A stretch of 64,000 nucleotides of DNA from Candidatus Saccharimonadota bacterium (lineage in GTDB: Bacteria > Patescibacteriota > Saccharimonadia > Saccharimonadales > Saccharimonadaceae). Below, piece by piece: positions 17,683 through 63,798 of the stretch (positions are counted from its first letter, which is position 1; each line of letters opens with the position of its first letter). The translations under genes were made by a program, and so were the position numbers. The notes beneath the pieces are model-generated. The model worked only from the letters and a program-made list of their open reading frames with translations. It searched no databases and was not told the origin of the DNA. Location of the stretch: the NCBI GenBank assembly GCA_017431745.1, contig JAFRKK010000002.1, forward strand, positions 1-64,000. The letters are read 5' to 3'.

Positions 17683-18174
17683 GTGGAATTAAAAAAGCAC
17701 CTAAATCTGCGTTTTGTTTTCGTAGGATTATATTTAGTGGCGTTTTTGGCTTTTTTGATATATGGTCTACAGCCGGCAGAGGCAGTTGAGGCATATGTGA
17801 TTGGTTCTAAACTAAAAATCCCGAGCATTGGCCTGAACACTGACGTAACAAAATTGGAATTAACGGAAAATGGTTTGAAAACGCCAGATACTATCGTGGG
17901 GAGTTATTCGAGATTTGAAAATAAAACTTTGCTGATTGGTCATTCTACGACAATCTTCAATAACTTAAAAGATGTAAAGCTTAGTGATAAGATTGAATAT
18001 AATAATACAACTTATGAAGTAAAAACGATTGACATGTTGGCAAAGGACAAGATTGATATGGATAAGCTACTAAAAACTAGCCGACAAGATACGGTCGTAA
18101 TTATGACTTGCGCTGGAAAACTACTTGACGGTGGTGACGCGACGCATCGATTAATCATAACTGCGACTAGATAA
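17683..18174 (+). CDS. srt: Sortase (class D/E/F-like)
   Basis: Membrane-anchored cysteine transpeptidase, 163 aa. An N-terminal TM helix (10-29) leads to a sortase beta-barrel with the catalytic triad H87 (LIGHST), C143 (IMTCAG) and R156 (THRLIITA). The GTG start (17683) follows a strong AAGGAGGAG. No LPXTG-like sorting signal is visible in the exported proteins of this window, so its substrate lies elsewhere or has an unusual motif. Its last codons form part of the left arm of palindromic element A1. Confidence 0.88.
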   Translation: MELKKHLNLRFVFVGLYLVAFLAFLIYGLQPAEAVEAYVIGSKLKIPSIGLNTDVTKLELTENGLKTPDTIVGSYSRFENKTLLIGHSTTIFNNLKDVKLSDKIEYNNTTYEVKTIDMLAKDKIDMDKLLKTSRQDTVVIMTCAGKLLDGGDATHRLIITATR

Positions 18175-18279
18175 TATCTATTCGGGGGACGGGTCGCTCG
18201 CTCCCGTCGTCACGGGGCTCGCGCCCTCATTCTCGGTCGTAACCTCCGAAAGCCCCCGAATAGATATTATCCTAGTCGC
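18163..18279. repeat. Palindromic element A1 (family A) between sortase and GH97 gene
   Basis: Arms 18163-18188 and 18253-18279 are inverted copies with a one-base indel. The arms include the last codons of both convergent genes. The core carries CCCGTCGTCACGGGG and CTCGGTCGTAACCTCCG, shared with the other family A copies. It can serve as a two-way terminator. Confidence 0.85.
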
Positions 18280-46694: not shown

Positions 46695-46773
46695 GTGGCC
46701 CGACCTCGTGCTGGATAGCGGGAGGCCCAAGGTCACTTTTTGTTATCTGGAAAATGTGTTATAATATGTGGAT

Positions 46774-49058
<2,285 letters not shown>

Positions 49059-51274: not shown

Positions 51275-51823
51275 ATGGCAGTAAATAGATATGATGACAC
51301 TAGAGCGTGGTACGCGATTTCAACGTACTCCGGCTACGAGGACAAGGTAGCGGATTCGATTAACCAGAGAACCGGCACCGCGGAAATGGCCGATAAGATT
51401 TTTGAAGCGATTGTACCAAAGGAAAAACAGATTGAAATCAAAAATGGTAAGCGCAAAATTGTGGATCGAAAGATTTTGCAAGGCTATGTGTTGGTTGATA
51501 TGAAGTTATCTGATGAAACTTGGTATATTATCCGCAACACTCCTGGTGTGACTGGTTTTATTGGTACTGGTACGCAGCCGACGCCGGTGTCCGAGAAGGA
51601 AATCACTAAGATTAAGAAGCGGATGGGCGTGGAAGACCCGAAGTTCTCAGTGAAATACGAGGTTGGCGAAGTAGTTTCGATTACCGATGGGCCATTTAAG
51701 GGCTTTGATGGGTCGATTTCGGAAATTGACGCAGCAAAAGGTAAGCTGAAGGTGATGGTGTCGATGTTTGGACGCGAAACACCAGTTGAGCTCGATGCTT
51801 TACAAGTAAAACAACTTAATTAG
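51275..51823 (+). CDS. nusG: Transcription antitermination factor NusG
   Basis: 182 aa. NGN domain (WYAISTYSGYEDKVADSI; GYVLVDMKL; VRNTPGVTGFIG-like) and KOW domain (GEVVSITDGPFKGFDGSISEID). SD AAGGAG. The stop codon directly abuts the left arm of element A2. Confidence 0.96.
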   Translation: MAVNRYDDTRAWYAISTYSGYEDKVADSINQRTGTAEMADKIFEAIVPKEKQIEIKNGKRKIVDRKILQGYVLVDMKLSDETWYIIRNTPGVTGFIGTGTQPTPVSEKEITKIKKRMGVEDPKFSVKYEVGEVVSITDGPFKGFDGSISEIDAAKGKLKVMVSMFGRETPVELDALQVKQLN

Positions 51824-51960
51824 CAACCAAAATAGTGCTCCTCGGACACGGGTCGGCTCGGCCCGTCGTCACGGGCGAGCCGCCCTAATTCGACGCTACG
51901 CTACGTCTTCGACGAGCGGTCGTAACCTCCGAAATGTCCTCGGAGCACTTTTTTGTTTGC
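51823..51960. repeat. Palindromic element A2 (family A) between nusG and rplK
   Basis: Arms 51823-51847 and 51935-51960 match in inverse over about 25 nt with a few mismatches. The core has GGCCCGTCGTCACGGGC and GGTCGTAACCTCCG, with an extra 24-nt GC-rich segment found only in this copy. The T-run in the right arm could make it a terminator or attenuator for nusG. Confidence 0.85.
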
Positions 51961-57882: not shown

Positions 57883-57892
57883 TAGAAAATAA

Positions 57893-58010
57893 AAAAACAA
57901 AAAATAGCACTTCTCGGACACGGGTCGCTCCGGCCCGTCGTCACGGGCGGAGCGCCCTAATTCTCGGTCGTAACCTCCGAAATGTCCTCAAAGTGCTATT
58001 TTTAGTTTTT
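57893..58010. repeat. Palindromic element A3 (family A) between the membrane gene and rplL
   Basis: Arms 57893-57912 and 57991-58010 are inverted copies with one mismatch. The core has GGCCCGTCGTCACGGGC and CTCGGTCGTAACCTCCG. T-runs on both strands make it a good two-way terminator for the convergent genes. Confidence 0.88.
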
Positions 58011-58545: not shown

Positions 58546-59067
58546 CTAATTCGCATGTGCTTCTAGACCAGATACGATACCTGGTAAACCGCCAGTAAGG
58601 CCTGAAACACTGTCCGTGACTGGTGAAAGAAGTTGCGCCACCACCTGAGCGATAAGCTCGTTTTTGCTTGGCATTGCGGCAAGCGACTTTACTTCTTCTT
58701 CCGACAAGGCGTTGCCTAAATCAGAAAAACCACCGGTTAATACTAAAGCGTTATGAGTTTTAGCAAACTCAGCCAAAACTTTTGCTGGAGCGACTTCATC
58801 GCTATCTGATACCGCATAAAGCAATTGACCAGTTAAACCAGTCGTGTCGGTATCTTTATAGACGGCGATTTGTCCCATCGCAACGCGCACTAAGCGGTTC
58901 TTTACTACCTTGATTTTTACGCCATTTTCGCGTGCAGCTTTGCGAAGCTCTTGCATCTCAGCTACGGTCAAACCTTGGTATTTGGCGTAAACGGTAGTTT
59001 TAGCACCACTTAAAAGCTCAGTTAAATCAGCAACCAATTCGTTCTTTTTTTGCTTTGTTATTGCCAT
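58546..59067 (-). CDS. rplJ: 50S ribosomal protein uL10
   Basis: 173 aa. MAITKQKKNELVADLTELLSGAKTTV... matches uL10, with KVVKNRLVRVA in the rRNA-binding part and a C-terminal helix for L12 dimers. Anchors the L12 stalk. Preceded by an L10 leader. In this genome rplJL is separated from rplKA and on the other strand. Confidence 0.95.
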   Translation of the reverse strand: MAITKQKKNELVADLTELLSGAKTTVYAKYQGLTVAEMQELRKAARENGVKIKVVKNRLVRVAMGQIAVYKDTDTTGLTGQLLYAVSDSDEVAPAKVLAEFAKTHNALVLTGGFSDLGNALSEEEVKSLAAMPSKNELIAQVVAQLLSPVTDSVSGLTGGLPGIVSGLEAHAN

Positions 59068-59079
59068 AAAAAGTCCTTT

Positions 59080-59200
59080 TGGTTAATTTGATATTTGGTT
59101 AGCTAATTGTTAAACAGCGTCACCAAATAAACTCCCAAGAATTATTCCTCGGCGACATGATTAAGGATTACTCCCGTCGCTGTCTTTGGTAACTCCCTTA
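59080..59200 (-). promoter_or_regulatory. Ribosomal protein L10 leader
   Basis: The 5' UTR on the minus strand contains AAGACAGCGACGGGAG, TGTCGCCGAGGA and GTGACGCTGT, which form the kink-turn stem of the L10 leader where the L10(L12)4 complex represses its own mRNA. Confidence 0.7.
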
Positions 59201-59229
59201 ATTATACCACAAGATACTTGACAATACAA
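59201..59229 (-). promoter_or_regulatory. Promoter of rplJL
   Basis: TTGTAT (59224-59229), 17-nt spacer, TATAAT (59201-59206). The -35 box touches the left arm of element B2. Confidence 0.55.
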
Positions 59230-62328: not shown

Positions 62329-63798
62329 GTGAAGAGTTTATACAGACGCTATAGGCCGGTGAGGCTAACTGAGGTTATTGGGCAGGAGCAAGTCACCAAA
62401 CCCTTAAGTAATTCCTTGAAAAATGGGAAGATTTCGCATGCGTATTTGTTTGTGGGGCCGAGAGGGTGTGGGAAAACTTCCGTAGCAAGAATTTTGGCGC
62501 ATGAAGTAAATGATTTTAAATATGAGATTGAGGACGATTATGTAGATATCATTGAAATTGACGGTGCGAGCAATCGAGGAATCGATAATATTCGAGAGCT
62601 TCGCGAAAAGGTGATGATTGCGCCAACAAGTGGCAAATATAAAGTTTATATTATTGATGAAGTACACATGTTGACCAAGGAGGCGTTTAATGCTCTTTTG
62701 AAAACTCTAGAAGAACCACCGAAACACGTGATTTTTATCATGGCGACGACCGATGCTTATAAAGTACCGGTGACGATTACTTCACGAGCGCAAGTTTATA
62801 CTTTTAAATTGGCCGCGGCTGACGTGATGATGGGGTTTTTGAAATCAGTGGCTTCAAAAGAGAAGATTAAAATCACAGACGAAGCGTTGGGGGTGATTGT
62901 TAAACGAGGTGGTGGGTCGTTTCGCGATACTTTGTCGCTCCTTGATCAGCTATCGACTTTGTCGGCTGACAAAATAACTGCCGAAATGGTGGTGAAAGCA
63001 ATGGGGCTGCCGCAAGACGAACAAATTGCCGAGTTGTTGGATGTTTATACTAGTGGTGACGTTGTAAGAATTACAACAATTCTAAAAGAATTATTATCTT
63101 CAGGAGTAAAGGCCGAGACGTTGGCAGAAGAGCTAATTGCCACGATTGTGGCGAAACCGAAATCGGAGCTAATGTCGCTTCTTGCGAAATTACCGGAAGT
63201 CAAGGCGCCGTTTGCCGAAGCGAAATTGTTAGTTGCTTTAACTTGTAGGCAATCTGGAATTGCCTTTTCTCGGGACGGGTCGCTTCGGCCCGTCGTCACG
63301 GGCGAAGCGCCCTCATCCTCGGTCGTAACCTCCGGAAGCCCTCGTAAAGGCAATTCCAGATTGCCCTCGAAAAAACCAAGTCCGGCCGGCCCGTCCACTG
63401 AAAAGATACGTTCGCAGGCTTCCAAATCTGGAGATGATATTGGAAAAACAGGTTTAGCCGCCAGTGCTAAGCAAGCCGTCACCATTTTCGACTGGGACGC
63501 CTACATCGATAAGGTGAAGGGGTTGAATGATGCGGTGGGGATGCAGCTGAAAAAAGTGAAACATGAGTTTGATGATGACACTTTGCACATTTATCCGGAA
63601 AAGAAAATCATTAAAAGCATCCTTTCACGGGATAATAATAAGAAAATTTTACTGAAAGCGGCCGGGAATGATGTAAAAATTACAATACACGACGAAAACG
63701 ATAAGCCTAGCAATGTAAAAAAAGATGCGGTGGCGGAGCGAATTTCTGATATAATGGGAGGAGAGGTACAAAATGATAGAGGAGGTAACCCATTCTAG
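62329..63798 (+). CDS. dnaX: DNA polymerase III gamma/tau subunit with in-frame palindromic insert
   Basis: 489 aa. Clamp-loader ATPase: YRPVRLTEVIGQEQV, Walker A GPRGCGKTS, Walker B IIDEVHML, SRC-like TSRAQ, sensor 2 GGGSFRDTLSLLDQ. The zinc-binding Cys of domain I are absent. Residues about 307-346, at the end of domain III, are encoded by element A4 (SGIAFSRDG... to ...GNSRLP). GTG 62329 follows TATAAT (62315-62320) by 8 nt. Its last 26 nt overlap dnaB. Confidence 0.93.
   Translation: MKSLYRRYRPVRLTEVIGQEQVTKPLSNSLKNGKISHAYLFVGPRGCGKTSVARILAHEVNDFKYEIEDDYVDIIEIDGASNRGIDNIRELREKVMIAPTSGKYKVYIIDEVHMLTKEAFNALLKTLEEPPKHVIFIMATTDAYKVPVTITSRAQVYTFKLAAADVMMGFLKSVASKEKIKITDEALGVIVKRGGGSFRDTLSLLDQLSTLSADKITAEMVVKAMGLPQDEQIAELLDVYTSGDVVRITTILKELLSSGVKAETLAEELIATIVAKPKSELMSLLAKLPEVKAPFAEAKLLVALTCRQSGIAFSRDGSLRPVVTGEAPSSSVVTSGSPRKGNSRLPSKKPSPAGPSTEKIRSQASKSGDDIGKTGLAASAKQAVTIFDWDAYIDKVKGLNDAVGMQLKKVKHEFDDDTLHIYPEKKIIKSILSRDNNKKILLKAAGNDVKITIHDENDKPSNVKKDAVAERISDIMGGEVQNDRGGNPF
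63248..63365. repeat. Palindromic element A4 (family A) inside dnaX
   Basis: Arms 63248-63266 and 63347-63365 are perfect 19-nt inverted copies; the left one is ordinary dnaX coding sequence. The core has GGCCCGTCGTCACGGGC and CTCGGTCGTAACCTCCG. Core plus one arm is 99 nt (33 codons). Confidence 0.9.

Follow-up and report, generated by a model that had tools for sequence, protein, structure and literature searches.

The hairpin at positions 57893-58010 of the window (the 64,000-nt stretch of DNA analyzed here, positions C2:1-64000 of genome G000) is built of a conserved core between two arms, and raises the question of where these arms come from. From the letters alone it had been proposed that the arms are not terminal repeats shared by all copies but inverted copies of each site's own flanking DNA, produced by a fold-back or template-switching insertion step. 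On balance, the comparisons described below point to a family of insertion elements in one Saccharibacteria genus, short, palindromic and non-autonomous and similar in habit to Rickettsia palindromic elements (RPE), in which the target arm was probably copied in reverse by fold-back or template switch and the arms were kept alike afterwards.

The element is abundant within its genus. A covariance model built from 19 cores, which was used for the copy counts in G000 and its relatives, finds about 41 copies in the 744-kb, 97% complete Saccharibacteria genome G000, while 57893-58010 as a BLAST query gives 26 matches within the same genome. Core-model matches occur in 58/60 sampled species of the genus, and among 240 genomes drawn across the phylum the model scores only in members of the genus and, as weak matches, in one distant genome. 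The relatives found via UvrB are Candidatus Saccharibacteria, many of them from goat, sheep and deer gut. The Rfam search of the element returned no family match at the gathering score. In the distant genome (G316, from another family of the phylum) the weak model matches lie at L139, L143, L147, L151 and L155, and the 18-nt perfect arm pair at L139 indicates that the element type may extend past the genus. Carriage by phage was considered and rejected: the single exact 17-mer match in a viral contig lacks a surrounding hairpin and looks like chance.

The conserved core of ~70 nt folds as a three-way junction of P1, a short hairpin (P2) and a longer hairpin (P3) that ends in CCCGT-GACG-ACGGG, with core ends of the type TTCGAGG...CCGAGAA. 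At 57893-58010 the folded core has a z-score of -8.8 on the + strand and -9.4 on the - strand, and its two arms pair with each other around it (sequences in Table 1). Across copies, 12 of the 24 predicted core pairs are still paired after changes on both sides. P1, which adjoins the junction, differs from copy to copy yet pairs, and beyond it the copies have in common only a run of pyrimidines on the left and one of purines on the right. Related but different cores, found in queA (A5 in Table 1) and at rplL of G009 and G020, have similar outer ends. The inner hairpins of these other core types (window 47484-47590; rplL 3' regions of L096 in G009 and L065 in G020) differ, and such cores occupy like sites, sometimes the identical site in different species.

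Table 1. Arms and cores of the five copies in the window
Feature	Position	Strand	Remarks
A3 left arm	57892..57912	+	3' of TM7S3/TM198-like ORF, rplL terminator region; sequence AAAAAACAAAAAATAGCACTT
A3 core, type A three-way junction	57912..57992	-	R1 match, 100.7 bits
A3 right arm	57991..58010	+	sequence AAGTGCTATTTTTAGTTTTT; plain terminator here in core-less relatives
A4 left arm, inside dnaX	63248..63267	+	complementary to right arm, 20/20 nt
A4 core, type A	63267..63347	-	in frame in dnaX (ORF 62329-63798)
A4 right arm	63346..63365	+	pairs with A4 left arm
A1 left arm	18163..18184	+	overlaps 3' end of sortase gene
A1 core, type A	18181..18261	-	core-model match
A1 right arm	18257..18279	+	one extra nucleotide on this (element-left) side
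A2 left arm	51823..51841	+	after nusG
A2 core, type A with enlarged P2 hairpin	51840..51944	-	core-model match
A2 right arm	51942..51960	+	before rplK
A5 left arm, inside queA	47479..47498	+	codons ETAKK are the native side (16 core-less relatives)
A5 core, related but different type	47496..47577	-	29.9 bits; in frame in queA (ORF 46768-47874)
A5 right arm	47574..47593	+	inverted copy of native queA codons; missing in core-less relatives

Pairing is between the two arms of one copy, and the arms do not represent terminal repeats common to all copies. When one copy was taken per site (73 sites, with orthologous copies kept out), the pairing score of a copy's own arms had a median of 13, versus a median of 1 and a 99th percentile of 7 for arms swapped between copies. 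Own arms exceeded this 99th percentile at 67/73 sites, so that the claim of pairing in every copy has to be relaxed, while the arms are, as had been claimed, unrelated between copies. Pairing spans about 22-32 nt from the P1 edge within a search reach of 32 nt. In being small, non-autonomous, dispersed and hairpin-forming the elements resemble MITEs and REP/BIME repeats. MITEs, however, share terminal inverted repeats, usually with direct target duplications, whereas here only the core ends are common to the copies; left arms compared with the left arms of other copies score at background (median 1), in agreement with the distinction from ordinary transposon inverted repeats drawn by the sequence-only reading.

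Which arm belongs to the target can be read where the element lies inside a gene. Empty sites are too diverged at the nucleotide level to decide, and the native arm was therefore judged by codon and protein comparison with core-less relatives, which are other species. Five coding sites were resolved in this way (QueA 115, QueA 243, TrmD, MnmA site 2 and the Obg loop), each with one native arm and one inverted copy. Core-less alleles of TrmD read WNQ..AREFA, two or three residues and HYIILCP, and filled alleles read AREFA, the core, about four new residues and HYIILCP; the left arm consists of the AREFA codons and the right arm of their inverted copy, ending about where the native HYI starts. 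At MnmA site 2 the left arm (KDLLL, KDVFL, KELSF) is native, with BLOSUM scores per residue against core-less relatives of +2.9 and +3.1 (G000, G026) and +1.2 (G025), whereas the inverted copies on the right (encoding RSGRA, RRETS and RNESS) score -0.2 to -0.5 and have no counterpart in core-less relatives. The same contrast between native arm and copy is found at QueA 115 (left arm, e.g. DVLFV, native), at QueA 243, which is the A5 copy of the window, and at the Obg loop, where the arrangement is reversed, the right arm (ILLADL) being native and the left arm the copy. The native arm is thus 5' of the core at 4/5 resolved sites (TrmD, QueA 115, QueA 243 and MnmA site 2). Der and UvrB are weakly compatible with a native arm and an inverted copy. 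The copies in UvrB, Der, MnmA site 1 and dnaX sit in variable loops in which the native arm is not firmly nameable; the dnaX arm lies in a hypervariable linker and for this reason is not assignable as original dnaX sequence.

These comparisons bear out, for the five resolved sites, the proposal that the core is accompanied by an inverted copy of its target and the expectation that the ancestral site should have a single conserved arm. The codons downstream of the insert are intact, not overwritten, at TrmD and MnmA. Taken together, a native arm, its inverted copy and intact downstream codons are most simply accounted for by reverse-sense copying of the flank around the folded core, the two ends of which lie side by side.

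At 57893-58010 itself the inverted copy of the target is not established. Most relatives have a plain terminator without a core after rplL, the core-less genomes with such an ordinary hairpin including G026, G004, G023, G015, G017, G032 and others, while a type A core lies between terminator arms in G000, G006, G007 and G018, and another core in G009 and G020. The rplL copy fits a Rho-independent terminator (a G+C hairpin and then a T run, downstream of a gene), which the coding copies do not. Empty sites that already hold both arms are what the sequence-only reading had named as evidence against itself, and the core-less terminator hairpins at rplL are of this kind, at a divergence that prevents proof of arm homology. 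At rplL, an existing palindrome may have taken up the core or had its loop replaced by it. If the same held generally, the core would home into the loop of pre-existing palindromes such as terminators or older inserts, and both arms would be older than the core. Different core types at the same TrmD and QueA loops are consistent with such homing, as is the rplL terminator of the core-less relatives; the core-less alleles of TrmD, QueA, MnmA site 2 and Obg, on the other hand, have no second arm at the protein level, and as a general explanation we regard it as unlikely. Just upstream of rplJ-rplL, window positions 59058-59207 on the - strand hold a ribosomal protein L10 leader (Rfam).

After insertion the arms do not drift apart. 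At corresponding sites they change in step with the host gene: 23 copy pairs, not all of them independent and some of which may be separate insertions at one site, contain 63 mirrored substitutions, whereas 2000 permutations average 11.1 and reach at most 22. A smaller pair set gives mirrored changes in the same direction with a weaker contrast. At MnmA site 2, G000 and G026 differ by four changes in the left arm, each of which has its mirror change in the right arm (4/4). The arms thus evolve together, as the earlier reading had suggested should be checked; for any pairs that are separate insertions at one site, the mirroring would reflect fresh copying, not later correction. Template switching between inverted-repeat arms homogenizes the arms and inverts the spacers (PMC8604942), and can create stems in one event (PMC8794818). 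At individual Der, TrmD and QueA sites the core occurs in either orientation. Correction of the arms after insertion, which the mirrored changes support and which is a known process (PMC8604942, PMC8794818), would also fit a core that brings nothing but its short ends at insertion and acquires its arms later, stepwise, by quasi-palindrome template switching. We consider such growth improbable: long arms are already present in all 17 best-scoring cores, so that the arms do not look slowly grown, and the downstream codons of TrmD and MnmA would not be expected to have escaped overwriting.

The arms also carry unpaired nucleotides at fixed distances from the P1 edge. Among 110 copies, one lies 13-17 nt from this edge in the element-left arm of 40 copies versus the right arm of 3, and another 7-10 nt from it in the right arm of 27 versus the left arm of 9. 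Purines make up 87% of the extra left-arm bases, and RAAW tends to come next. In Der the element is inverted in G023 relative to G000, and the extra base is on the element-left arm in both, which places it on the copy in G000 and on the native arm in G023; the base tracks element polarity, and a copying slip is thereby ruled out as its origin. On the element strand G.T pairs outnumber A.C pairs (64 vs 34, p 0.003), whereas the mRNA strand has no excess of G.U over A.C (48 vs 60), a modest hint that it is always the same strand of the element that folds.

Integron attC and IS200/IS605 hairpins act as a folded single strand in which an extrahelical base gives polarity, and the present element would be like them in both respects. 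There, however, conservation falls on the recognized stem, with a loop that is free to vary, whereas in the present element it falls on the core and the stem is variable. The folded element could be a recombination or transposition site recognized on one strand by an enzyme in the attC or IS200/IS605 manner, with the fixed unpaired purine as part of the site; this would agree with the polarity-linked unpaired bases (purine, then RAAW) and with the G.T excess on the element strand, and would require that the recognized arms be target-derived in genomes of which 39/40 lack a Y1 transposase, making it a very remote prospect. We give equally little credence to selection on RNA or DNA hairpins, by which compensatory substitutions would keep the arms complementary and their likeness to the flank would be secondary. 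The core structure is indeed conserved with covariation, but the mRNA strand has no G.U excess, the orientation of the element relative to the gene is even (42 vs 37), and hairpin selection alone does not make an inverted copy of conserved codons.

No mobilizing enzyme was identified among the Y1 transposases and reverse transcriptases examined. A Y1 transposase in the genome, as for IS200/IS605 or REP sequences, is present in 1/40 genomes of the genus and absent from G000. RVT_1 reverse transcriptases are present in 25/40 genomes of the genus and do not, as for a retroelement, occur wherever the element does: G018, G025, G026 and G060, which hold 14-20 element copies, have no RVT_1 match. Mobilization by resident reverse transcriptases is therefore unsupported, several genomes rich in copies having none. 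The reverse transcriptases of G000 (L302:5128-6264 and L303:7705-8841; those of relatives at L304-L309) have YVDD and IGNLTSQ/IGNLSSQ motifs and by eye resemble the enzymes of diversity-generating retroelements.

The fold-back or template-switching insertion proposed at the outset remains the best reading of the arms, with the step itself inferred: no insertion was seen between near-identical genomes, the relatives compared being other species. The core, whose conserved part is the three-way junction, would carry no arms of its own, and one flank just outside it would be copied in reverse sense as DNA synthesis doubled back over the closed core or changed strand there. The product would then be, in order, the target arm, the core, the inverted copy of the target arm and the unaltered downstream sequence. 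As the host gene drifts, later template switching would maintain the likeness of the arms and would probably flip the core; the survivors would be only those inserts in frame in protein loops, or in terminators and spacers. Either a switch of the replicating strand or extension from a core attached at a nick would serve, and the data do not separate them. We infer that the copy was made at insertion rather than soon after, and that some enzyme or replication accident moves the core. The fold-back or template-switch account leaves unexplained why the native arm is mostly 5' of the core, and plain template switching does not predict the unpaired bases at fixed distances or the weak purine-RAAW preference. 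Tentatively, the element may be an armless mobile element whose folded single-strand core joins the target end and primes fold-back synthesis there, each insertion building an inverted repeat from the host gene; the distances of the unpaired bases would be set, and one strand would be favored for folding.

Several described systems share part of this behavior. RPE, compared here by description only, are likewise short dispersed palindromic repeats, many of them in frame in unrelated genes, according to excerpts of PMC10969869. The present elements are dispersed palindromes of about 100-150 nt with 79/110 copies in a stop-free frame of at least 120 codons, a count from a sample biased towards the genes searched. 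For RPE a conserved encoded peptide is described, whereas the present core is translated in several frames and in either orientation, and target-copied arms are unmentioned for RPE in the same excerpts (PMC10969869). Template-switch (quasi-palindrome) mutation also gives inverted copies of nearby sequence, with arms homogenized and spacers inverted, in coding DNA as well (PMC8604942, PMC8794818), and the elements share with its products a reverse-complement copy of local sequence and arms corrected to each other; there, however, only local sequence is involved, while the present arms flank a core that is conserved and dispersed. In Nematomorpha mitochondria inverted repeats are tolerated inside translated genes, but both arms encode conserved protein, in contrast to one here, and the excerpts of that report describe no dispersed core (PMC6649704).

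In-frame copies of the element lie in QueA, DnaX, Obg, TrmD, MnmA (two), Der (two), UvrB, GatB, PolA, PheT, FemAB and others, the gene names being taken in some cases from Pfam matches and in others from recognizable sequence. Stop codons in the core are not rarer than in shuffled cores (3.36 vs 3.47 open frames of 6), and survival in frame is thus most simply the result of selection. We know of no settled account of how in-frame palindromic repeats such as RPE spread; here a copying step is indicated, and made accessible to tests, by the target-copying arms and by the empty and filled alleles available in many species. The family offers a natural case of paired arms that, within essential genes, remain similar on the time scale of species. 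It would also let Saccharibacteria proteins (TrmD, QueA, Obg, MnmA and others) acquire and remodel loops. The TrmD, QueA 115, Obg and Der loops are hit or altered in many species, so that loop lengths are hypervariable within one genus. In the QueA 115 loop of G020 (L065; L020-series queA) there is a direct repeat, with CTTAACCTTGA present twice and no palindrome, possibly the product of a different insertion process.
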